Shown here: in pieces, positions 2,387-12,619 of the stretch | Numbering within the stretch: position 1 is the stretch's first letter | Layout: the number at the start of each line of letters is the position of its first letter | NCBI GenBank assembly: GCA_013044295.1 | Contig: JABEUU010000044.1 | Span: forward strand, 1-36,857 | Length of the DNA stretch: 36,857 nt | Source: Candidatus Dormiibacterota bacterium | GTDB taxonomy: Bacteria > Chloroflexota > Dormibacteria > Aeolococcales > Bog-877 | Direction of reading: 5' to 3' | Notes under the pieces: model-generated | What the model was told of the DNA's origin: nothing | What the model saw: only the letters and a program-made list of their open reading frames with translations | Databases searched by the model: none | Translations under genes and position numbers: made by a program

Positions 2387-2824
2387 TCATCCGCCGCTGG
2401 CCAGCTCCACCAGGCGCTCGAGCGCCATCACGTAGCCGACCGCGCCAAAACCGGCCACCGTGCCTCGACAGGCACCGGCAACCAGATCGGTCTGTCGGAA
2501 CCACTCACGGGCGGCGGGATTGGTGAGGTGGACCTCCACGGTCGGCACCCCGATCGCCGCGATCGCGTCGCGAATGGCGACACTGGTGTGGGAATACCCA
2601 CCCGGGTTGATTATGATGCCGGCCGCGTCCTCCTGGGCAGCTTGCAGCCAGGTGACGAGTTCGCCCTCAGAGTTCGACTGGCGCGCCTCCAGCTCCACTC
2701 CGAGCTCGCGGGCCCGCTCGGCCAGAAGTGCTTCCACCTCGGCGAGGGTCTGGCGACCGTAGAGAGCGGGCTCCCGGCTGCCCAGCAGGTTGAGGTTGGG
2801 CCCGTGCAAGACCACGATCTTCAC
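2387..2824 (-). CDS. aroQ: Type II 3-dehydroquinate dehydratase
   Basis: This 145-aa cytoplasmic enzyme dehydrates 3-dehydroquinate to 3-dehydroshikimate, step 3 of the shikimate pathway. It starts with the family signature VVLHGPNLNLLGSREP. The catalytic Tyr region (ALYGRQTL), the QSNSEGELV motif, INPGGYSHTSVAIRDA and VEVHLTNPAAREWFR (catalytic His) are all present. Length is typical of the dodecameric type II enzymes. The GTG start overlaps the aroKB stop as GTGA, so translation is probably coupled. It is the last gene of the aro operon. A GC-rich 6-bp hairpin (2369-2386) follows its stop codon directly but lacks a T run. Confidence 0.96.
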   Translation of the reverse strand: MKIVVLHGPNLNLLGSREPALYGRQTLAEVEALLAERARELGVELEARQSNSEGELVTWLQAAQEDAAGIIINPGGYSHTSVAIRDAIAAIGVPTVEVHLTNPAAREWFRQTDLVAGACRGTVAGFGAVGYVMALERLVELASGG

Positions 2825-4476
2825 GACCCTGCACCCGCCGCCGGCTCCCCATCAGGCCAGAGAAACCGCACCGCCCAGGCGAGCTCCAACCCCTCCACCA
2901 AGAGGGCCCCTCCATCCCGCCGCGGCACCACGAACACCGCCCTTCCGGCCCGACGCTTTTTGTCTCCCGCCATGGCCTGCAAGACCCTGACCGGGTCGAG
3001 TCCGGAGGGGGGATCCTGAGGAAGCTCCAGTCCCCGGGCGAGCTCTTGCAGCTCCAAGGCGAGTCCGGTTGGCGATAACCCCAGATTGGCGCCAAGTTTG
3101 GCGGCCGCTAGCAGACCCACTGCGACCGCCTCACCATGGGACAGCGCGTAATCGCTGGCAGACTCCAGGCCATGAGCGAAGGTGTGGCCCAGATTGAGTG
3201 CTTGCCGGGCCCCGAGGTCGCCCGGGTCCACCGCCACGTAGGCGGCCTTGATCCTGACCGCCTGCTCCACCAGCCAGCTCCAATCCTGGCGGGAGGAGGC
3301 TCCCACAGATTGCTTGATGAGGTGCAAGGTCAGGGGCGACCCTAGCACCGCGGCCTTGAGAACTTCTGCTAGGCCCTGGCGCAGGATGCCGACTGGAAGG
3401 GTGGCCAGAAACTCGGGATCGGCCACCACCAACCTCGGCTGGTGGAAGGCACCCACGGAATTCTTGGTCCCCGAATGGTCGATCGCTACCTTGCCGCCGA
3501 TGGCCGCGTCCGCCATGGCCAACAGAGTGGTTGCCACATTCACCAGCGGCAGTCCCCGGGCGAAAGTGGCAGCAGCGAACCCGATAGCGTCCAGGGCGGC
3601 GCCTCCGCCGACGGCAACGATAAGGTCGTGCCGATCAGCCCCGAGGGCAGAGAGCTGCTCCCAGAGCCGGGCCACCACCTGGATGCGTTTGGCGGCTTCG
3701 CCTGCCGGAACCTGGAGCGCGACGACCTGCAGGCCCCCGGCCCGAAGAGCCGTGGCTGTGGCTTGGCCGGCAGTTCCCGCCACCAGCGCATCCGCGATCA
3801 CCACCGCCCGCTGCACCTCGCCAATCTCACGGGCCACCGCCTCCCCCAGCTTCGCCACCGCCGACGGCCCAATCAAAACCGGATAGGAGCTTGGCCCATC
3901 CGTGACCCTTACCTCCGCCGGCCCCGGAGGCACGGCCGCTCGGTACCTCGCCTCCACCTCAGCGGCCACCTCGGCCACGGACCGGCCGGTGGTCGAGACC
4001 AAGGGTCCCGCGGCGGCGTAGGCCGCCTCCCTCTCCCTCATGAGGGAGGAAATGGTCCTGGCCCGTTCAGGCTCCAGCAGCGGCCGGGGGTGGGAACCCA
4101 ACAGCCGCCGCTGCGTCTCAGCCCGGTCACAGTCCAGAACCACCACGACAGCTCCGGCTGCCAGCTGTCGAAATCGGTCCGAGTCGGTGACAGCGCCACC
4201 CCCAGTCGCCACCACGCAGCCGGAGAGCTTGGCTGCGTCGGTGAGCGCCGCCCGCTCCAGAGCCCTGAAGCCACCCTCTCCCAGGCTCTCGAAGATCTGC
4301 TCCACGGAGAGGCCAGCCCGGTCCGCCACAACCTCGTCCAGGTCGATGAACGGAAGCCGGAGGCGCCCCGCCACCTCCCTGCCGACGGTCGTCTTCCCGC
4401 TTCCAGAGAAGCCCGTGAGAACCAGCTTGGCCCTGCCTGAGGGCAGGTCTGGGGGCAGGATCTCCGTCGCGGTCAC
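2821..4476 (-). CDS. aroKB: Bifunctional shikimate kinase / 3-dehydroquinate synthase (AroK-AroB fusion)
   Basis: This is a 551-aa fusion. Residues 1 to about 170 are shikimate kinase: Walker A GFSGSGKTT at 22-30, then FIDLDE, GGFRALE and ATGGGAVT. From about residue 190 the chain is 3-dehydroquinate synthase: VAVGGGAALDAIGF (NAD binding), TTLLAMADAAIGGK, GTKNSVGAFHQP, and zinc-ligand segments QGLAEVLKAAVL, LNLGHTFAHGLE and LSHGEAVAVG. It thus covers steps 2 and 5 of the pathway in one chain, which are not consecutive reactions. The GTG at 4476 overlaps the aroC stop as GTGA, the pattern of its neighbours. An open frame extends 50 codons further upstream, but that part is aroC in another frame and shows no kinase homology. 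The order kinase-synthase matches the adjacent aroK-aroB order of many bacteria, so a gene fusion is the simple explanation. Confidence 0.95.
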   Translation of the reverse strand: MTATEILPPDLPSGRAKLVLTGFSGSGKTTVGREVAGRLRLPFIDLDEVVADRAGLSVEQIFESLGEGGFRALERAALTDAAKLSGCVVATGGGAVTDSDRFRQLAAGAVVVVLDCDRAETQRRLLGSHPRPLLEPERARTISSLMREREAAYAAAGPLVSTTGRSVAEVAAEVEARYRAAVPPGPAEVRVTDGPSSYPVLIGPSAVAKLGEAVAREIGEVQRAVVIADALVAGTAGQATATALRAGGLQVVALQVPAGEAAKRIQVVARLWEQLSALGADRHDLIVAVGGGAALDAIGFAAATFARGLPLVNVATTLLAMADAAIGGKVAIDHSGTKNSVGAFHQPRLVVADPEFLATLPVGILRQGLAEVLKAAVLGSPLTLHLIKQSVGASSRQDWSWLVEQAVRIKAAYVAVDPGDLGARQALNLGHTFAHGLESASDYALSHGEAVAVGLLAAAKLGANLGLSPTGLALELQELARGLELPQDPPSGLDPVRVLQAMAGDKKRRAGRAVFVVPRRDGGALLVEGLELAWAVRFLWPDGEPAAGAGS

Positions 4477-5627
4477 GAAGCCCAGTCCCCGTTCGGCTGG
4501 CCTGCGACCGCGGCCGCCGCCAGCATCGCATCGAGGCGGTCTCCCCCGAAGCGGTCCACGATCGCGCTCCCCAGGACGCAGGCCATCATGGCTTCCCCGA
4601 CCACCGCTGCCGCGGGCACCGCGCAAACGTCGGACCGAATGTAGGCTGGGTCGGCTGGGGCACCGGTTTCGAGATCGACTGAGGTGACCCGGGCCCGCAC
4701 CGAGGAGAGCGGCTTCATTGCCGCCCGCAGCAAGACCGGTTCGCCATTGGTGACCCCCCCTTCAATCCCGCCGGCGAAGTTGGACGCGCGCTCCAAGCCA
4801 GTCTCGGTCCTAACAATCGAGTCTTGGGCCCCTGCCCCCGCCATCTGGGAAACGCCGAACGCCGGTCCGATCTCGACTCCCTTGACGGCAGGAATTGAAC
4901 AGATCGCGCCCGCCAAACGGCCGTCGATGCGGCGGTCCCAGTGGGTGTAGGAGCCAAGTCCCACTGGGACCCCGGTGGCGAAGACAACGAAAACTCCCCC
5001 CAGCGTCTGGCGCTCGAGGCGAGCCCCATCGATCGCGGCGATCATCGCCAGCGCGCGCTCCGGATCGGGGCAACGCACCGCGTCAGATTCGGCTCGGTCT
5101 GCCATCTGTCGCAGCTCGGACCCTGCCAGGCCGGCTAGATCGGTGTCCATTCCCACCGGGCCGATCGCCGTGACGAAACTACCCAGGTCGATCCCGAACG
5201 CTCCCAACAGGGGGCGCAGCAGCGCTGCGGCAGCCACCCGGGCGGCGGTCTCGCGAGCGCTGGCGCGCTCTCGCACCACCCTGAGGTCGCCGAGCCCGAA
5301 CTTGGTTGCCCCGGCCAGATCCGCGTGCCCGGGCCGCGGCGTCGTCAGCACTGGCTTGGAGGTCGGCTGGTTGGCGAAGTCCAGATTTTCGATCCGCATC
5401 GCGACCGGGGCGCCGGTGGTCCTGCCGAGCGCGACTCCGGAGGTGATCTCAGCATGATCTCGCTCCACCTTGGTGGACCTGGCCCCACGCCCGTGCCCGC
5501 CCTGGCGTCGCCGCAGCTGCCGATCGATGTCCTCCGGATCCACCGGGACTCCTGCCGGCATACCCTCCAGGATCAGCACCAGCTCCGGGCCGTGAGACTC
5601 ACCCGCGGTGAGCAGTCGCAGGCTCAA
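4473..5627 (-). CDS. aroC: Chorismate synthase
   Basis: The 384-aa protein converts EPSP to chorismate, the last shikimate step, using reduced FMN. Diagnostic segments are LTAGESHGPEL at the N-terminus, RRQGGHGRGARS, TTGAPVAMRIEN, RPGHADLAGATKFG, VRERASARETAARVAAAA, ASNFAGGIEGGVTNGEP and DVCAVPAAAVVGEAMMA. The length is normal. The start is a TTG at 5627: it overlaps the aroE stop as TTGA and puts the conserved N-terminus at residue 1. It is the sixth gene of the aro operon and overlaps aroKB by 4 nt. Confidence 0.96.
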   Translation of the reverse strand: MSLRLLTAGESHGPELVLILEGMPAGVPVDPEDIDRQLRRRQGGHGRGARSTKVERDHAEITSGVALGRTTGAPVAMRIENLDFANQPTSKPVLTTPRPGHADLAGATKFGLGDLRVVRERASARETAARVAAAALLRPLLGAFGIDLGSFVTAIGPVGMDTDLAGLAGSELRQMADRAESDAVRCPDPERALAMIAAIDGARLERQTLGGVFVVFATGVPVGLGSYTHWDRRIDGRLAGAICSIPAVKGVEIGPAFGVSQMAGAGAQDSIVRTETGLERASNFAGGIEGGVTNGEPVLLRAAMKPLSSVRARVTSVDLETGAPADPAYIRSDVCAVPAAAVVGEAMMACVLGSAIVDRFGGDRLDAMLAAAAVAGQPNGDWAS

Positions 5628-6472
5628 AGCCCCGCTCCCGCAGGGTTTGCCCGGTAGGCGGCCTGCCTCATTACCTCAACTGGGGCGGCGGCCCCGGTCC
5701 AGACCTCAAACGACAGGGCCGCCTGCTCCACCAGCATCTCGATTCCCTCCACGGTTCGGCAGCCGGATGCGGCCGCCTGTCGCAACAGCGGGGTCTGCCG
5801 TGGCCGGTACACCAAGTCCACCACGGCCACGTTCGCGGGCAGCACGATGGCCCCTCCAACCGGTGACTGGTCGGGCGCCGTTGGGCCGCCCAGGGGAGTC
5901 GCGTTGACCAGAAGGTCGGCATCGACCAGGGCCGCGCCCAGGGACAGAGCATCCAGCGGGGAGAACGCGACCTTACCTGACAGCGGCGGCCCTAGCTCCA
6001 GGGCAATCGTATCTCCGCGGGCCCGGTTGCGTCCCATGACGGTGACCTGTGTGCCCTGGCCCGCCAGCGCCGCCACGACTGAGCGGGCCGCCCCACCTGT
6101 CCCCAGCACCACCGCGCGCTGCACGCGGTCGACTCCCGCCCTGGACAGGGCCGCCATGAACCCACGGCCATCGGTCGAGTCGCCAAGAGCGCCTGATGCC
6201 CTGAAGGTCACCGTGTTCACAGAGCCGCAGAGAGCGGCCACCGAGGTCCTCTCGCTGACCAGGCGGGCGGCTTCCACCTTCAGGGGAATGGTCACGTTGA
6301 GGCCCAGGAATCCCTCCATTAGCTCGCCCCAATGAGCCTCTAGCTGGCCCTTGGGAACACCGACCAGGACATAGTCCCAGTCCAGTCCGACCTCCCTGAA
6401 GCCAGCGATCTGGATCTGCGGAGAAGGGCTGTGGTCGACGGGGTCTCCGACCAGGGCAATGCGGGCGCTCAC
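5624..6472 (-). CDS. aroE: Shikimate dehydrogenase (NADP+)
   Basis: The 282-aa enzyme reduces 3-dehydroshikimate to shikimate. The substrate-binding N-terminus reads VGDPVDHSPSP; the usual form is GxPIxHSxSP. The catalytic Lys is in LNVTIPLKVEA and the Asp in DSTDGRGFM. The nucleotide fold has VVLGTGGAARSVVAAL followed by GRNRARGD, whose arginines suit NADP. VNATPLGG and a conserved C-terminal helix (EMLVEQAALSFEVWTG) complete it. The GTG at 6472 overlaps the aroA stop as GTGA and gives MSARIALVGDP, the usual family start; a longer reading frame adds six residues without homology. Confidence 0.94.
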   Translation of the reverse strand: MSARIALVGDPVDHSPSPQIQIAGFREVGLDWDYVLVGVPKGQLEAHWGELMEGFLGLNVTIPLKVEAARLVSERTSVAALCGSVNTVTFRASGALGDSTDGRGFMAALSRAGVDRVQRAVVLGTGGAARSVVAALAGQGTQVTVMGRNRARGDTIALELGPPLSGKVAFSPLDALSLGAALVDADLLVNATPLGGPTAPDQSPVGGAIVLPANVAVVDLVYRPRQTPLLRQAAASGCRTVEGIEMLVEQAALSFEVWTGAAAPVEVMRQAAYRANPAGAGL

Positions 6473-7767
6473 CGGAGGCGGTCCAGGCACTCGAGAAACC
6501 CCGGGAAGGAGTCCTCGACAAACTCCAGTCCGCTCACCTCTACCGGTCCAGCGGCGACCAGGCCCGCTAAGGCGAAGGTCATCGCCAGGCGATGGTCCGT
6601 GAGTGAGTCGCAGCGGGCGGGACCCAAGCGACGAGGGCCCTCGACCACGAAGCCGTCAGGGAGCTCCTCGACATCGCCCCCGAGCGCACGGAGTCCATCC
6701 ACCAAGCCACGGATGCGGTCGCTCTCCTTGACCCGCAACTCGGCTGCGCCGCGAACCTCGGTCGCTCCCTCGGCCTGGGTGGCCAGCAGCCCGACCAATG
6801 GCAGCTCGTCCACCAGCAGGGGCACCTCGGCCGCGGACACCGAGGTGCCGCGTAGGGGAGCGTGCCGCACCCGCAACGTCACCGTTGGCTCGGGAGACTC
6901 GAGCCCAATCTCAGGGCTGACCTCCACGCTACCGCCCATGCGCAGCAGGACCTGCAGGAGGCCGAGACGGCTGGGGTTCCCAGACACTCCCTGGAGCACC
7001 ACGTCGGACCCGGGCACCAGTGCGGCCGCCGCCATGATCACGGCGGCCGAGGACGCGTCCCCCGGAACGGCCAGGTGGAGCGGGCGCAGGCTGGACCGGC
7101 TCACCCTTATTTGGGTCCCTTCTTCAGAGGGGACCACACTGAGGCTGGCGCCCATCGCAATCAGCAAACGCTCGGTGTGGTCCCGGGTCGGGATCGGCTC
7201 CCAGACCACCGTTGTGCCACTGGCCCGCAGGCCGGCGAGCAGGACCGCCGACTTGACCTGGGCACTCGCCACCGGGCTGGTGAAGCTGATGCCCGACAGC
7301 CGACCCCCCGTAAACCGCAGCGGCGGTCTGCCCGCCGGCTCGGTTTCAACCCCGGCCCCCATCTGACGCAACGGATTCGCCACCCGCTCCATCGGCCGCC
7401 GCAGCAGCTGAGGATCACCTGTCAGGACGGTGACCCCCTGCCAGGACGCGGCAACTCCAGAGAGCAATCGCATCGTGGTCCCCGACCGATGGCAGTCGAC
7501 CACCCGCGAGGTGGAGGCGCCTGCCGCCTCGCCTCCCCGGCCATTGACCTGAACAGTGCCTCCGAGGTGGCGCACATCTGCGCCCAGGGCAGCCAGAGCT
7601 GCCAGCGTCGCCCGGCAATCCCCGGCACTGGAAAAGCCCGAGATGGAGCTCACGCCGGTGGCCAGGGCGGCGAGGATGGCGGCCCGATGTGATATCGCCT
7701 TGTCCCCCGGCACCCGGCAGTACCCCGTGAGGGGCCCGGAGGCCGGCTCGATTAGGCCGAGGGTCAT
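6469..7767 (-). CDS. aroA: 3-phosphoshikimate 1-carboxyvinyltransferase (EPSP synthase)
   Basis: The 432-aa enzyme joins shikimate-3-phosphate and phosphoenolpyruvate. Visible motifs are GDKAISHRAAIL (PEP/substrate Lys, Ser and Arg), RSGTTMRLLSG (NAGTxMR equivalent), RRPMERV, SAQVKSAVLLAGL, GDASSAAV, LRVKESDRI and DHRLAM. SAQxK occurs in glyphosate-tolerant class II enzymes, but the Gly of SGTTMR is the ordinary form, so tolerance cannot be read from this. The ATG overlaps the tyrA stop as ATGA. Length is normal. Confidence 0.96.
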   Translation of the reverse strand: MTLGLIEPASGPLTGYCRVPGDKAISHRAAILAALATGVSSISGFSSAGDCRATLAALAALGADVRHLGGTVQVNGRGGEAAGASTSRVVDCHRSGTTMRLLSGVAASWQGVTVLTGDPQLLRRPMERVANPLRQMGAGVETEPAGRPPLRFTGGRLSGISFTSPVASAQVKSAVLLAGLRASGTTVVWEPIPTRDHTERLLIAMGASLSVVPSEEGTQIRVSRSSLRPLHLAVPGDASSAAVIMAAAALVPGSDVVLQGVSGNPSRLGLLQVLLRMGGSVEVSPEIGLESPEPTVTLRVRHAPLRGTSVSAAEVPLLVDELPLVGLLATQAEGATEVRGAAELRVKESDRIRGLVDGLRALGGDVEELPDGFVVEGPRRLGPARCDSLTDHRLAMTFALAGLVAAGPVEVSGLEFVEDSFPGFLECLDRLR

Positions 7768-8645
7768 TGGGAAGCACCCAGCAGATCACGCCTGGCGGCG
7801 GCGCCATCCCGCAGGATCTCGGCGACCGATCCCTGCCCCAGGGAGAGAGCCTCAGCGAGTCGGCTCAATTCAGCGCTCAGATCCGCCACAGCCGCCGCCA
7901 CCTGGGTGGCATTGGCCACCAGGAACGAAGCCACCATCTCGGGGTCCGACTCGGCCAACCGGGTGGCACCGCGAAAGCCCGGACCGAGAAGCGCTACCGT
8001 CGAGGGATCGACCAGCCCGCTGTCGCGGCAGAGCCTGGCGAGAGTCCCCGCGACCACGTGGGGCAGATGGCTGGAGCGAGCCACGATCCGGTCGTGGACC
8101 GCCGCTGCCATGGTCACCGGCCGCGCTCCCAAACTCTGGACCAGCCGGGTCGCCAGCGTCAGGGCAGGGCCATCCTCTCTGACTGGTGTGAGCACGAAGG
8201 GGGCGTTCCTCAGGGCTTCCTGCCTGGCGGCCGCAGGTCCGTTCGCCTCGCTCCCGCAGATTGGGTGGCCGCCAACAGCGGCGGCACCTGCCGGAACCGT
8301 CCGCGCCATGGCCGCCACCACCGCACCCTTCGAGCTGCCGGTGTCAATCAGCAGGGAGCCGGGTGGGACCCGGGAACCCCACGTCTCGATCCATTCCACT
8401 ATCCCAGTCACTGGGATGGCAAGGATGATCACGTCCGCAACCAGCACCTGGTCCATACCCACCAGCACCCGGTCCCCTCCGCCGAGGGCCAGCGCCTCCG
8501 CCGCAATCGCGGGGTCGCGGTCCTGGAGCCCGACCTCCAGAACGCCCCATCTCTGGTCGGCCCCCGTCAGAGCCTGGCCAATCATGGTGCCGATCTGCCC
8601 CGCGCCCACGATCGAGACCCGGCCCAAGCCCGTCAAACCAGACAC
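7764..8645 (-). CDS. tyrA: Prephenate dehydrogenase
   Basis: The 293-aa protein has a Rossmann N-terminus (VSIVGAGQIGTMIGQAL), an IDTGSSKG segment, GGHPICGSEANG and the substrate helix ARSSHLPHVVA with its catalytic His. It oxidatively decarboxylates prephenate (or arogenate) towards tyrosine. No ACT or chorismate mutase domain is attached; the mutase is the separate aroH. I prefer GTG 8645 because GGAGG lies 10 nt upstream. A TTG at 8636 would form the TTGA overlap seen elsewhere in the operon but has no ribosome site at the right distance. Either way it overlaps the end of aroF. With aroH in the same operon, the transcript makes a complete tyrosine branch, which fits the Tyr-rich leader peptide upstream. 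Confidence 0.93.
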   Translation of the reverse strand: MSGLTGLGRVSIVGAGQIGTMIGQALTGADQRWGVLEVGLQDRDPAIAAEALALGGGDRVLVGMDQVLVADVIILAIPVTGIVEWIETWGSRVPPGSLLIDTGSSKGAVVAAMARTVPAGAAAVGGHPICGSEANGPAAARQEALRNAPFVLTPVREDGPALTLATRLVQSLGARPVTMAAAVHDRIVARSSHLPHVVAGTLARLCRDSGLVDPSTVALLGPGFRGATRLAESDPEMVASFLVANATQVAAAVADLSAELSRLAEALSLGQGSVAEILRDGAAARRDLLGASQ

Positions 8646-9649
8646 CGATCAACTGCCTCCGCCACCCTCCCCGCCTGTTGGTAGAGTCGGTCGAAGCTGG
8701 CGGGATCGAGCGACTGCGCCCCGTCCGAAAGCGCCTCAGATGGCCGGGGATGGACCTCCACCAGGAGGCCGTCGGCTCCCGCCGCCACGGCGGCTCTGGC
8801 AATCGCCCCCACGTACTCCGCCCGGCCAGCGGCATGGCTGGGATCCACCACGATCGGCAGGGAGGTCAATTGCTTCAGCACGGGGATCGCGGTGATGTCG
8901 AGGGTGAACCGCACCGACGGCTCGAAGGCGCGAATTCCGCGCTCGCAAAGCGCCACCTGCTGGTTGCCGCCGGCCAGGATGTACTCCGCCGCCTGCATCC
9001 ACTCGTCGAGCGTGGCAGCCAGGCCCCGCTTCAAGAGCACCGGTCGGTCGACGGCGCCACATGCCTGCAACAGCCTGTAGTTCTGCATATTGCGAGCCCC
9101 CACCTGCAAGAGGTCGGCGTAGCTCGCCACCAACTCCACGTCCTCGGATGAGAGCACCTCGGTGACCACCGCCAGACCGAGGTCGTCGGCGACCTCCCGC
9201 AACATCTTGAGCCCTTCCTCTCCCAAGCCCTGGAAGGAGTACGGGGAGGTCCGTGGCTTGAAGGCCCCTCCCCTGAGCACCTTGACCCCCCGGGCTGCCA
9301 CCGCCTCGGCTGACTCCGTCAGCTGCTGCCGCCCCTCCACAGCACACGGCCCGGCCATCATGAGCACGCCCTGGCCACCCAGAATCGCTCCATTACCGAG
9401 TGTGATCACCCTGTCCGCGGGATGGAAGTCACGGCTGGCCAGGGGATAGTCATTGAGCACCCTGACCACCCTCTCCACCCCATCCAGCGCCGCCACCGCA
9501 TCCAGATCCGAGTCACGTTCGTGGCCCACGACGCCGACGATCGTGCGTTCGCGCCCGTGGGACACATGGGGCGTACAGCCGAGCAGCCGGACCTTGGCCA
9601 CCACCGCGCGGACCTCGGCGGGCGTCGCCTTGGCCGACATCACGATCAC
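8633..9649 (-). CDS. aroF: DAHP synthase, type I-beta with N-terminal ferredoxin-like domain
   Basis: The 338-aa protein catalyses the first committed shikimate step, condensing phosphoenolpyruvate with erythrose-4-phosphate. The first ~70 residues match the small ferredoxin-like regulatory domain found on Thermotoga-type enzymes, where it mediates Tyr/Phe feedback. The barrel shows MMAGPCAVEG, LRGGAFKPRTSPYSFQG, VTEVLSSEDVE, LLQVGARNMQN, VLLKRG, LDITAIP, VVDPSHAAGR and GLLVEVHPRP. The GTG start overlaps the aroH stop as GTGA. Its partner substrate comes from the pentose phosphate pathway, whose genes lie about 10 kb away in this window. Confidence 0.96.
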   Translation of the reverse strand: MIVMSAKATPAEVRAVVAKVRLLGCTPHVSHGRERTIVGVVGHERDSDLDAVAALDGVERVVRVLNDYPLASRDFHPADRVITLGNGAILGGQGVLMMAGPCAVEGRQQLTESAEAVAARGVKVLRGGAFKPRTSPYSFQGLGEEGLKMLREVADDLGLAVVTEVLSSEDVELVASYADLLQVGARNMQNYRLLQACGAVDRPVLLKRGLAATLDEWMQAAEYILAGGNQQVALCERGIRAFEPSVRFTLDITAIPVLKQLTSLPIVVDPSHAAGRAEYVGAIARAAVAAGADGLLVEVHPRPSEALSDGAQSLDPASFDRLYQQAGRVAEAVDRCLV

Positions 9650-10098
9650 GAGCGTTCGCTCCGCTCGGCCACCAGGTCTGGACGCAACTGCTGGGCGCCT
9701 CCCAGGTAAGCGTGCTGGATCTGCTGCTGGGAGAGGCGGGAGTTGACCAACATCAGGGCCCTGATGCAGTGCGGCAGCCGGGTGTCGCCGCCATGCTCGC
9801 GGACCATGAGCAGGGGCACCCGGTCGAAGCCGCAGGCGCGCGCCGCGGCGGCCGGATTGACGTCGCCAAGGTCGGGCTGAAGTGTGAACACCAGGGCCGC
9901 AATGTCCTCGATCAGAATCCGGTTCTGATCCAGCATCAGCTTCAGCATCCCCCCCACTGCCGCCTCCAGTGCGGAGGAGGAGGGTTGGGAATCGACTGTG
10001 ATGGCACCTCGAACCCCGCGGCAGGCGATGGCCGCCGGCGCCCGGTCAGCCACATTTGCGCCCGGACTCTCGTCCCGGTCGGGCCGCTCATTGAACAT
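9646..10098 (-). CDS. aroH: Monofunctional chorismate mutase, AroH (trimeric) type
   Basis: The 150-aa protein matches the small AroH family rather than the helical AroQ class. Active-site counterparts are visible: Arg in CRGVRGAITV, the FTLQPDLGDVNPAAAAR segment, Glu in MVREHGGD, Arg in LPHCIRALM, Tyr in HAYLGGA and Arg in QLRPDL. It turns chorismate into prephenate for tyrA (and phenylalanine synthesis elsewhere). The start ATG 10098 has AAAGGAG 8 nt upstream; the open frame continues far upstream through the leader region, but without homology. It is the first structural gene of the operon and begins about 57 nt after the attenuator terminator. Confidence 0.95.
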   Translation of the reverse strand: MFNERPDRDESPGANVADRAPAAIACRGVRGAITVDSQPSSSALEAAVGGMLKLMLDQNRILIEDIAALVFTLQPDLGDVNPAAAARACGFDRVPLLMVREHGGDTRLPHCIRALMLVNSRLSQQQIQHAYLGGAQQLRPDLVAERSERS

Positions 10099-10155
10099 CA
10101 ACCCATCTCCTTTCCCCATCAGGGGATTTGGGAGCGGGACCGCGGCCCTGACATC

Positions 10156-10184
10156 AAAAAGGCGCGGACTCCGCTCCGCGCCTT
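10156..10184 (-). terminator. Intrinsic terminator (attenuator) before the aro operon
   Basis: On the minus strand AAGGCGCGGA (10184-10175) and TCCGCGCCTT (10168-10159) form a perfect 10-bp stem with a 6-nt loop. Five T residues (10160-10156) follow, two of them shared with the stem. It stands between the promoter/leader peptide and aroH, so it can stop transcription before the first structural gene. Its 5' arm is shared with a longer competing hairpin (10239-10177). Confidence 0.88.
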
Positions 10185-10239
10185 CCGCTGTCTTCGAGTC
10201 TCGGCTGGCTACCCGAAACGATGACACGCGGAAGGCGCG
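10177..10239 (-). promoter_or_regulatory. Antiterminator hairpin of the aro leader
   Basis: CGCGCCTTCCGC (10239-10228), inside the leader peptide frame, is exactly complementary to GCGGAAGGCGCG (10188-10177). With one bulged G the pairing continues through TGTC/GACA (10192-10189), giving about 16 bp in total. The 3' arm contains most of the 5' arm of the terminator, so the two structures exclude each other. CGCGGA at 10280-10275 can also pair with TCCGCG at 10232-10227. That gives a possible third, ribosome-sensitive hairpin with the Tyr codons in its loop. The pairing is read directly from sequence; the regulatory role is inferred by analogy to trp/phe attenuators. Confidence 0.8.
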
Positions 10240-10310
10240 TTGGCAAAATACGCATAGGCGTACTCGCTCAAGCGTCCGCGGGTCGGGGTAGACGAGCCGA
10301 ACAACATCAT
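10209..10310 (-). CDS. Leader peptide of the aro operon (33 aa, Tyr/Phe-rich)
   Basis: A 33-codon frame starts ATG-ATG at 10310 and ends TAG at 10211-10209. Its centre reads EYAYAYFANAPSACHRFG: three Tyr codons (TAC, TAT, TAT) alternate with Ala and are followed at once by Phe TTT. The T-ending codons stand out in this G+C-rich DNA. The codons lie about 10 nt before the segment that forms the antiterminator. A ribosome held there for lack of Tyr-tRNA (or Phe-tRNA) would therefore leave that segment free, while one reaching the stop would cover or approach it. No Shine-Dalgarno site is present, but the start lies only 10 nt after the -10 box, so the RNA is probably leaderless or nearly so. The downstream genes make tyrosine, which matches the stall codons. 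Confidence 0.82.
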   Translation of the reverse strand: MMLFGSSTPTRGRLSEYAYAYFANAPSACHRFG

Positions 10311-10320
10311 GTGACTGGTC

Positions 10321-10349
10321 ATTCTCGCTGGTTGCCAGCTCCGCGTCAA
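10321..10349 (-). promoter_or_regulatory. Sigma-70-type promoter of the aro leader and operon
   Basis: TTGACG (10349-10344) and GAGAAT (10326-10321) are separated by 17 nt on the minus strand. It begins 13 nt after the trpG stop codon. Expected transcription start is about 10314-10312, immediately before the leader ATG at 10310. Transcripts coming through from the trp promoter would also meet the aro attenuator. Confidence 0.72.
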
Positions 10350-10361
10350 GCCCGGGGAGGA

Positions 10362-10940
10362 TCACCCAGCCACCGTGATCTCGGCGAGGAAGTTGGCCAC
10401 CAGGCTGGGGCCCTCCGGGGTCAGGACCGACTCGGGGTGGAACTGGACCCCGAACCAGGGCCGGCGGCGATGCCGCAGCGCCATTACCAGGCCACTCTCG
10501 GTGGTGGCATCCACCAGGAGCTCTTCCGGCAGGGTTTTCGGATCGACCACCAGGGAGTGGCAGCGGCCGCCCTCCAGGGGAAATCCGACGCCCGTGAATA
10601 GGCCCTCCCCATGGTGCAAGATGGAACTGGCCTTGCCATGCACCGGGTCCGGCGCCGTGGTGACGACGGCACCGAAGGCGACCGCGATTGCCTGATGCCC
10701 CAGACATACACCCAGCAACGGGGTGTCGACGGGCAGGGTGCTCACCAGGTCCACAAAGCATCCGGCTTCCTCGGGCCGGCCCGGTCCAGGGGAGAGGATC
10801 AGAGCTGCCGGCCGGAGCGCTACCAGGTCCGGCGCGAACGCCGACTCCGAACCCACCACCCGGACCTCGTAGCCGGCCATGGCGACCAGCTGGACCAGGT
10901 TGTATACAAAGGAGTCCTGATGATCGACCACCAGGATCAC
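10362..10940 (-). CDS. trpG: Anthranilate synthase component II (glutamine amidotransferase)
   Basis: The 192-aa class I amidotransferase supplies ammonia to TrpE (or PabB). It starts ILVVDHQDSFVYNLVQ. The nucleophile Cys79 lies in GVCLGHQAIA and the His168/Glu170 pair in GVQFHPES. ILSPGPGRPEEAG and GRCHSLVV are also typical. The GTG start overlaps the trpE stop as GTGA. It is intact although trpE before it is broken. No other trp gene is in the window. Confidence 0.93.
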   Translation of the reverse strand: MILVVDHQDSFVYNLVQLVAMAGYEVRVVGSESAFAPDLVALRPAALILSPGPGRPEEAGCFVDLVSTLPVDTPLLGVCLGHQAIAVAFGAVVTTAPDPVHGKASSILHHGEGLFTGVGFPLEGGRCHSLVVDPKTLPEELLVDATTESGLVMALRHRRRPWFGVQFHPESVLTPEGPSLVANFLAEITVAG

Positions 10941-12433
10941 GACCGATCTCCGGTGGGACCGGCCACGGCAGCCAGGATGGCCGAGGCCTTCGCTTCGGTC
11001 CCGCGCAGCTCGCGCTGGGGATCGGACTCAGCCACGATCCCGGCCCCGGCCTGGACATGGACCTGCCCTCCGGCAATCACGGCGGTCCGGATCGTGATGC
11101 TGAAATCCAGGTTGCCGGCAAAGGCAACGTAGCCGACCGCGCCCGGGTAGGGACCGCGCGCGGTCGGCTCCTCGCGGGCGATGATCTCCATGGCCCGGCG
11201 CTTGGGAGCACCAGTTACGGTGCCCGCTGGAAAGGTTGCGAAGAGGGCGTCCAGCGCGGTCATCCCAGCGGCCAACTGGCCCTCCACGGTGCTGACGATG
11301 TGCATCACCCGGGGGAAGTTCTGGACTGTCTCAGCTCCGTGGCGGCCACGCTGCCGGCAACGCAAACGCGGCCCAGGTCGTTGTGGGCGAGATCGACCAA
11401 CATGGCATGCTCGGCCCGTTCCTTGGGGTCGGCGAGCAGCTCCACAGCCAGTCTGCGGTCGTCCTCGGGATCCTCCCCCCTGGGCCTGGTCCCGGCGATG
11501 GGACGAGTCAGCACCCGGTCCCCGGCCACCTTCACCAGCGGCTCAGTGGAAGAGCCCGCCAGCTCCAGATCCGGAAGCCTGAGAAAGAACATCGCTGGCG
11601 ACGGGTTGGTCCGGCGCAGCCTCCGATAGAGCCGGAACCCAGCCTCCTGGGCGGATGCGGACAGCCGCCGGGACAGCACCGCCTGGTAGATGTCCCCGGC
11701 TGCAATGTGCTCCCGGGTCCTCCGCACCGAACCCTTGAACATGTCTCCTGAGAAATTAGGTGCGACCGCCAATCTGCCCTCGGTCAGGGCCGGGCCGTCC
11801 GGCGGCATAGGAGTTGCCTTGCGGATCAGGTCCGCCATCGACTCGACCGCCGCCACACCCTCCCGGTAGCCGCCGTCAGGTTGGACGTGCGCGACCAGGC
11901 ACAAGCGATTGAGCCGATGATCGAATACGGCCACGCGGTCGATCAGTAGGAGCAGGATCGGGGCGCCAGGGGGCCGTCCACGGCCCTGGGGGTAGGCATG
12001 TCCTTCGAGCAGCCCGGCGGCCTCATACGCAAGCATGCCAACCAAGCCCCCCGACAGCGTCGGAAGGTCGGGCACCCCAGGCGCCCGGAGTTGTGGGCGA
12101 TGCGCTGCAGGGAGCCGCGCGCATCGCCCGGCGGTTCCGTCCAGCCATCGGGGATCGGAAGCGGCCGCCGCCTCTCTACCAGCCGCACGCCTTTGGCGTC
12201 GACCACCAGAACCGCCACCGGGTCCCCGGCGACGATGGTGTACAGTCCCGGCTGACCAGAGATGTCGAGGCTCTCCAGGAGAACGCCAAGTCAGTCACCC
12301 GCGAGCGCGCCGAAGGCGTCCAGCGGGGTCGCGGCCCCGATGGGAAGCTCCTCCAGACGGGCACCAGCGGCCAGATCCCTCCCATCGCGGTCACGCTCGG
12401 CTCGTCGAGTCGGATCAGCACAGGGTCAGGCAT
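10937..12433 (-). pseudogene. trpE: Anthranilate synthase component I (trpE), interrupted by frameshifts
   Basis: Pieces of one TrpE follow each other in different frames. GIWPLVPVWR is followed by ELPIGAATPLDAF, then LLESLDISGQPGLYTIVAG. Next come MPDLPTLSGGLVGMLAYEAAG through HNDLGRVCVAGSVAATEL, and finally VQNFPRVMHIVSTVEG, TVTGAPKRRAMEI and VQAGAGIVAESDP. Single-base losses near 12350, 12087 and 11332 restore a continuous product when corrected, each in a short G or C run. A TGA near 12292 also interrupts the frame, as a nonsense codon or a pair of compensating indels. The repaired protein would have a normal length near 500 aa. The start ATG 12433 has GGGAG 5 nt upstream, just after the attenuator. 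Either the gene is decaying or the sequence carries errors here; the neighbouring genes read cleanly. Confidence 0.8.
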
Positions 12434-12450
12434 GTCGTCTCCCATTTGCC

Positions 12451-12480
12451 AAAAAAAAGGCCCCGGGTGCAAACCCAGGG
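12451..12480 (-). terminator. Intrinsic terminator of the trp attenuator
   Basis: CCCTGGGT (12480-12473) pairs with ACCCGGGG (12468-12461) across a TTGC loop (8 bp, one G-T pair). CC and an uninterrupted run of eight T (12458-12451) follow. It ends 18 nt before the trpE start codon and behind the Trp-rich leader peptide, the standard position of a trp attenuator. Confidence 0.92.
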
Positions 12481-12535
12481 CTCGGTGTTCGGACGCCGGT
12501 CTAATGGCTTACAGGCGTGCGGACACCGGACCCAG
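12476..12535 (-). promoter_or_regulatory. Antiterminator hairpin of the trp leader
   Basis: The 22-nt segment 12535-12514 can pair with 12497-12476. I count 18 of 22 positions pairing, including one G-T, with the core CGGTGT/ACACCG and ACGCC/GGCGT. The 5' arm begins 6 nt after the last Trp codon and ends just before the leader stop. The 3' arm runs into the first five bases of the terminator stem, so the two hairpins compete. The leader stop codon lies in the loop, so a ribosome finishing the peptide would disrupt this hairpin and favour termination. Confidence 0.75.
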
Positions 12536-12580
12536 ATAGGGCCAACTCCACCGCCACCCCAAAGACACCAAGCGAGCCAT
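12509..12580 (-). CDS. trpL: trp operon leader peptide (23 aa, three Trp codons)
   Basis: The frame runs from ATG 12580 to TAA 12511-12509. The product has 23 residues, with GWRWSWPYLGPV in the middle. The three TGG codons at 12556, 12550 and 12544 alternate with Arg and Ser. No ribosome-binding site precedes the ATG. It lies 9 nt after the likely -10 box, so the mRNA is probably leaderless, as described for actinobacterial leader peptides. The antiterminator and terminator that follow make this a classical ribosome-stalling attenuator responding to Trp-tRNA. A longer open frame runs through from upstream but shows no homology there. Confidence 0.88.
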   Translation of the reverse strand: MARLVSLGWRWSWPYLGPVSARL

Positions 12581-12589
12581 AGCCGCGCC

Positions 12590-12619
12590 AGTGTGTGTCC
12601 CCCAAGCCCTCACCGTCAA
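12590..12619 (-). promoter_or_regulatory. Promoter of the trp leader and trpEG
   Basis: TTGACG (12619-12614) is followed after 18 nt by CACACT (12595-12590); a 17-nt spacing gives ACACAC instead. The -10 is poor, but the -35 is identical to that of the aro leader. The leader ATG also lies exactly 33 nt after the -35 hexamer in both cases. Confidence 0.55.

Follow-up and report, generated by a model that had tools for sequence, protein, structure and literature searches.

A putative tyrosine-codon transcription attenuator preceding an eight-gene shikimate-tyrosine operon in a Candidatus Dormibacterota genome

Introduction

Attenuators of trp operons (trpL) are off by default when the leader is not translated, as is predicted for the leader described here, and the two follow the same logic, with Trp codons in trpL and Tyr codons at our locus. 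The leaderless short-frame Cys attenuators of mycobacteria, in which a leader peptide is made from a leaderless mRNA, offer a second parallel, with Cys codons and other genes. The Escherichia coli pheL/pheA and pheST attenuators (PMC11802643) also combine end-product codons with an antiterminator that overlaps the terminator; they differ in having Phe codons and controlling other genes, and the present leader has no Rfam match. In C. glutamicum, the aroR leader (Neshat et al. 2014, as reviewed in PMC11802643) encodes Phe-Tyr-Phe before the aroF operon and reportedly responds to limitation of Phe, not of Tyr. Its likeness to our locus is one of logic, namely, ribosome-mediated attenuation of a shikimate-entry operon through a leader peptide with aromatic residues, whereas at our locus Tyr codons are the usable ones, ahead of an operon with the entire pathway plus tyrA. 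A Phe-codon short frame with a terminator has also been described before aroF (DAHP synthase) in Acholeplasma (uORFC-13-1; PMC8632094); this shares the short frame and terminator with our leader and differs in the amino acid, in preceding aroF alone, and in phylum. RNA-level control of aromatic amino acid genes by tyrosine supply is likewise a property of Tyr T-box leaders (named in PMC1262725), although T-boxes, unlike our leader, bind tRNA directly and have no leader peptide. A survey of Actinobacteria from 2005 (PMC1262725), which cited T-boxes for Tyr, reported no conserved RNA element upstream of operons for Phe or Tyr.

Here, we analyze a 36,857-nucleotide stretch of DNA (the window), part of a 2.3-Mb draft genome of Candidatus Dormibacterota. 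A sequence-only reading had placed a Tyr-codon attenuator within it and called the arrangement new. That claim is tempered by the aroR leader of C. glutamicum, the nearest precedent. In the literature that we searched, which covered few subscription papers, no published Tyr-codon attenuator was found. Rfam models at their gathering thresholds returned only a tRNA in the whole window, with no leader family or T-box, and none of either type was matched by the leader at E values up to 10 or by 17 related loci. The leader is very probably a well-conserved new example of classical attenuation rather than a new type of switch; what is unusual is the choice of amino acid and the completeness of the operon.

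Results and discussion

The operon and its surroundings

The leader lies on the minus strand between trpG (end at 10362) and aroH (start at 10098). The operon consists of eight genes in the order aroH-aroF-tyrA-aroA-aroE-aroC-aroKB-aroQ, with neighbors that overlap or abut (Table 1). Pfam searches identified all seven shikimate enzymes, AroK and AroB being fused, together with a type I chorismate mutase and a prephenate dehydrogenase, in agreement with the earlier reading of a complete set of shikimate genes joined by these two activities. The gene for prephenate dehydratase, pheA, is outside the operon, within a cluster of his genes on a different contig.

TABLE 1 Positions in the window of the leader elements and operon genes
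Feature	Position	Strand	Evidence or remark
-35 box TTGACG	10344..10349	-	Promoter scan; TTGAC in 15/15 leaders
-10 box GAGAAT	10321..10326	-	Promoter scan; leader ATG 10 nt downstream
Leader peptide frame MMLFGSSTPTRGRLSEYAYAYFANAPSACHRFG, then stop; 33 codons	10209..10310	-	ATG 10310, TAG 10211-10209
Upstream segment able to pair with arm 1 when the ribosome is absent	10276..10284	-	Minimum-energy fold of whole leader
Tyr control codons TAC 10262-10260, TAT 10256-10254, TAT 10250-10248	10248..10262	-	-24/-18/-12 nt from antiterminator
Arm 1, CGCGCCTTCCGC, antiterminator 5' arm, within leader frame	10228..10239	-	Covarying helix; 10239-10228 pairs with 10188-10177
Arm 2, GCGGAAGGCGCG, 3' arm of the antiterminator, with a 3' half that doubles as 5' arm of the terminator	10177..10188	-	
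Terminator hairpin AAGGCGCGGA-GCGGAG-TCCGCGCCTT	10159..10184	-	91% of cells paired, mostly invariant (15 leaders)
T-run, five T, then G	10156..10160	-	In window, L043, L045, L048
Region 4, CCCGCTCCC	10130..10138	-	Complements GGAGCGG of terminator 5' half; family-conserved
aroH Shine-Dalgarno AAAGGAG	10107..10113	-	
aroH, chorismate mutase type I	9646..10098	-	Pfam PF07736, E 7.9e-32
aroF, DAHP synthase	8633..9649	-	Pfam PF00793 + PF18152
tyrA, prephenate dehydrogenase	7764..8645	-	Pfam PF02153 + PF20463
aroA, EPSP synthase	6469..7767	-	Pfam PF00275
aroE, shikimate dehydrogenase	5624..6490	-	Pfam PF08501 + PF18317
aroC, chorismate synthase	4473..5627	-	Pfam PF01264
aroK-aroB fusion, shikimate kinase + dehydroquinate synthase	2821..4626 (true start below 4626)	-	Pfam PF01202, PF01761, PF24621
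aroQ, dehydroquinase type II	2387..2824	-	Pfam PF01220

On the same strand, trpE (10937-12433) matches an intact relative of 509 amino acids in three reading frames (12350-12156, 12093-11311, and 11326-10955), which implies two frameshifts, whether from assembly errors or in a broken gene. A second attenuator-like leader (12433-12619, minus strand) precedes trpE. It has a TTGACG promoter box at 12619 and a leader peptide, MARLVSLGWRWSWPYLGPVSARL, that contains three Trp codons and ends at a stop codon (12580-12509, minus strand), followed by a hairpin and eight T (12458-12451). Trp-rich short frames (WRWSW and WRWP) also occur upstream of trpE in L034, L035, L038, and L039.

Elements of the leader

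The promoter TTGACG/17 nt/GAGAAT proposed from sequence was recovered by a promoter scan (10349-10321), with two promoter-like sites in the stretch compared to 0.1 in shuffles. A short frame with its own start and stop codons follows, ahead of the biosynthetic operon. As first described, this frame has 33 codons and includes EYAYAYF (TAC GCC TAT GCG TAT TTT after the codon for E); its strand, which the description had left out, is minus. Three Tyr within five codons anywhere in the frame have a probability of ~2e-4 at the Tyr frequency of the operon (0.85%). All three are at positions competent for stalling (-24, -18, and -12), and tyrA, for the end product concerned, is in the operon. We predict a leaderless mRNA for the leader, since the distance from the -10 box to the ATG is a constant 9 to 10 nt in the 15 leaders described below (10349-10308 in the window).

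Two mutually exclusive helices have arm 2 in common. The antiterminator consists of 12 perfect pairs, as had been claimed, with its 5' arm inside the frame. The terminator had been described as 10 bp followed by five T. The five T are present, and the core, GGCGCGGA/TCCGCGCC, has 8 pairs (10182-10161); a total of 10 is reached only by counting pairs between AA and the first two T of the run. The window has a predicted intrinsic terminator of 8 to 10 pairs with a T-run, an element lacking in 11 of the 15 leaders. A consensus terminator scan listed no terminator for the stretch; the T-run is short. The leader as a whole folds with a z-score of -6.2 (equally stable shuffles, 0/200) and matches itself as an inverted repeat with an E value of 2.8e-5.

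Conservation in related genomes

The same leader was found before aroH in 12 further genomes of the same family (Ca. Dormibacterota) and in two more distant ones (L043 and L048), giving 15 leaders with the window. A covariance model detected it at 86 to 115 bits in 13 same-family genomes, window included, with one copy in each, and nothing else scored above 25.5 bits among 110 genomes of the class. A search for a second copy elsewhere in the genome returned only weak, chance-level matches.

In all 15 leaders, 17 nt separate the two promoter boxes, and the stop codon falls 27 nt past the start of the antiterminator. Thirteen of the 15 have a Tyr codon exactly at -12 relative to the antiterminator, and 12 have Tyr at both -18 and -12, the -18 codon alternating between TAC and TAT. 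The peptides themselves vary (EYAYAYF, RFYAYRYA, DYPYAYAHG, LFTYRYVN, FFFYGWAY, and FGYRWYG). The earlier reading had proposed looking for the Tyr run in relatives, and Tyr codons, paired arms, and spacing are all retained.

It had also proposed looking for covariation in both hairpins, which we found in the antiterminator. In the antiterminator helix, 88.3% of cells are paired, versus 41 to 56% when the helix is slid, and the covariation score of 0.190 (0.146 when shuffled) was reached by 0 of 500 shuffles, although independent events are few, eight of the relatives being members of a single genus. Compensatory two-sided changes occur at three pairs: G-C replaces A-U at the second pair and U-A at the seventh, and U-A replaces C-G at the last. 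In the terminator helix, the count of covarying pairs was not above that of shuffles across the 15 leaders, with a single compensatory pair (U-A for C-G in L035); the helix is nearly invariant, so this count is uninformative.

Modeled switching and proposed mechanism

To represent a ribosome, the leader sequence behind its front edge was removed before folding, with an assumed distance of 13 nt between this edge and the first base of the A-site codon. In a scan of footprint positions, the antiterminator wins when arm 1 is free, and covering its first 3 to 4 nt raises the terminator above 0.9 in the window and most relatives. With the ribosome stalled at the Tyr codons of the window (-24, -18, and -12), antiterminator probabilities are 0.92, 0.92, and 0.79 and terminator probabilities 0, 0, and 0.16, compared to a terminator probability of 1.0 with the ribosome at the stop codon. 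With no ribosome, the terminator probability in the window is 0.77, a value that depends on the assumed 5' end; if that end is placed 3 nt before the ATG, the terminator dominates in 14 of the 15 leaders, L045 being the exception. The modeled switch works in the window and 11 relatives (L034, L036, and L038 to L045, and weakly L037, where a Tyr stall disfavors the terminator helix only slightly, with P 0.54 to 0.60). A modeled Tyr stall does not clearly disfavor the terminator helix in L033, L035, and L048.

We consider it highly likely, from sequence and modeling, that the eight-gene shikimate-tyrosine operon is under the control of this leader, acting as a ribosome-mediated transcription attenuator and sensor of charged tRNA-Tyr. 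The conserved Tyr codons, arms, and spacing and the covariation of the antiterminator support this core of the sequence-only reading. We show the sequence elements, with their conservation, spacing, and covariation, and a thermodynamic switch under a modeled footprint; we infer promoter use, leader translation, termination, and a response to tyrosine. RNA polymerase would start from TTGACG-17-GAGAAT, and the leader peptide would be translated from the predicted leaderless mRNA. A shortage of Tyr-tRNA would stall the ribosome at a Tyr codon 24, 18, or 12 nt before arm 1 and leave that arm free to pair with arm 2, so that the terminator is blocked and the operon transcribed. With ample Tyr-tRNA, the ribosome would pass over arm 1 and reach the stop codon, arm 2 would pair with arm 3, and transcription would end at the T-run. 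Without translation, the upstream segment would tend to take arm 1, making "off" the default state.

Absence of the T-run in most relatives

That sister lineages have lost the T-run is the most surprising part of the comparison. It is absent from 11 leaders (L033 to L042 and L044), eight of them from one genus and three from the window's own genus. These T-less leaders have a strong anti-Shine-Dalgarno sequence before aroH, such as CACCTCC facing GGAGGTG. Region 4 (CCGCTCC), conserved in the family, extends in those of one genus to a potential helix of ~14 pairs with arm 2.

This pattern raises the alternative that the same Tyr-codon sensor has a translational output, in which the helices gate the ribosome-binding site of aroH and termination is minor or absent. 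It would apply mainly to the 11 T-less relatives, whose best anti-Shine-Dalgarno duplexes (-9.3 to -14.9 kcal/mol, versus -7.3 to -9.3 kcal/mol in leaders with a T-run) are consistent with it, as is the ability of region 4 to pair with arm 2. However, computed access to the aroH binding site in the stalled state relative to the stop state is better in L039, worse in L041, and similar in most others. Because access is not consistently switched, we demoted this model of the T-less leaders to a rival, and we consider it improbable; the leader in the window, moreover, does have a T-run. Absence of the T-run in relatives leaves the reading of the window as a transcription attenuator unchanged. It is possible, though we hold the idea only tentatively, that the sensor has been rewired within one family: the sensor, antiterminator, and terminator-like hairpin would have been kept while most members lost the T-run and gained the anti-Shine-Dalgarno sequence, their output now being translation or a T-less terminator, and the window would represent the ancestral form.

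Predicted specificity for Tyr

The title given to the sequence-only reading called the attenuator responsive to Tyr and Phe; on a reading of this kind, shortage of either amino acid would open the operon. A TTT codon does follow the Tyr run in the window, Phe codons lie closer to usable positions in L033 to L035 and L043, and the leaders that precede chorismate mutase genes in other phyla combine Phe with Tyr. In the window, however, the only Phe codons upstream of arm 1 are that of the run, at -9, and the fourth codon, at -63, and a stall at -9 gives a terminator probability of 0.98. A ribosome there would cover arm 1 and leave the terminator, and we therefore describe the window leader as "Tyr" and not "Tyr/Phe"; under the model, Phe should not trigger the switch. 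Considering also that pheA is not part of the operon, dual responsiveness is very unlikely, and the "Tyr/Phe" label was not upheld for the window. As a separate matter, the idea that the Phe content of a leader tracks the presence of pheA in the operon was not supported, since leaders with and without a nearby pheA both mix Phe and Tyr.

A constitutive terminator or spacer at the trpG/aroH boundary, with incidental Tyr codons, might be proposed given that the hairpin is directly downstream of trpG and that function is read here from sequence, but this is extremely improbable, as every leader has a promoter ahead of it, the Tyr codons keep their register with the stop position and the antiterminator, and no trpG was found upstream of aroH in L043 and L048.

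Tyr/Phe-rich leaders before chorismate mutase genes elsewhere

Beyond the close family set, we also surveyed 68 chorismate mutase loci for upstream short frames with at least 5 Tyr/Phe in eight codons. Such frames occur at 22 of the 68 loci, compared to 1 in antisense and 0.45 in shuffles. A hairpin followed by at least 4 T lies between frame and gene in all 15 loci inspected (14 of the 22, plus L048). Loci with these frames include L049, L050, L052, L054-L056, L077, L080, L081, L083, L086, L089, L091-L093, L095, L097, L100, L101, L107, and L108, with peptides such as FSYYYFYF, FFFAYYFYAYFYG, and TTYYGYYF, and metagenome-assembled genomes of Chloroflexota and Neomarinimicrobiota are among them. 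By analogy, we regard the Tyr/Phe leaders outside the family as functional look-alikes of the window leader.

These results suggest that chorismate mutase genes in Chloroflexota and other phyla are preceded by a large set of Tyr/Phe leaders that has apparently not been described. Such a set would offer a natural experiment in the way attenuators change their specificity and output. If the proposed mechanism is true, the leader in the window would be a Tyr-specific ribosome-mediated attenuator in an uncultured phylum, governing the whole pathway, from the first committed reaction through to the intermediate that immediately precedes tyrosine.
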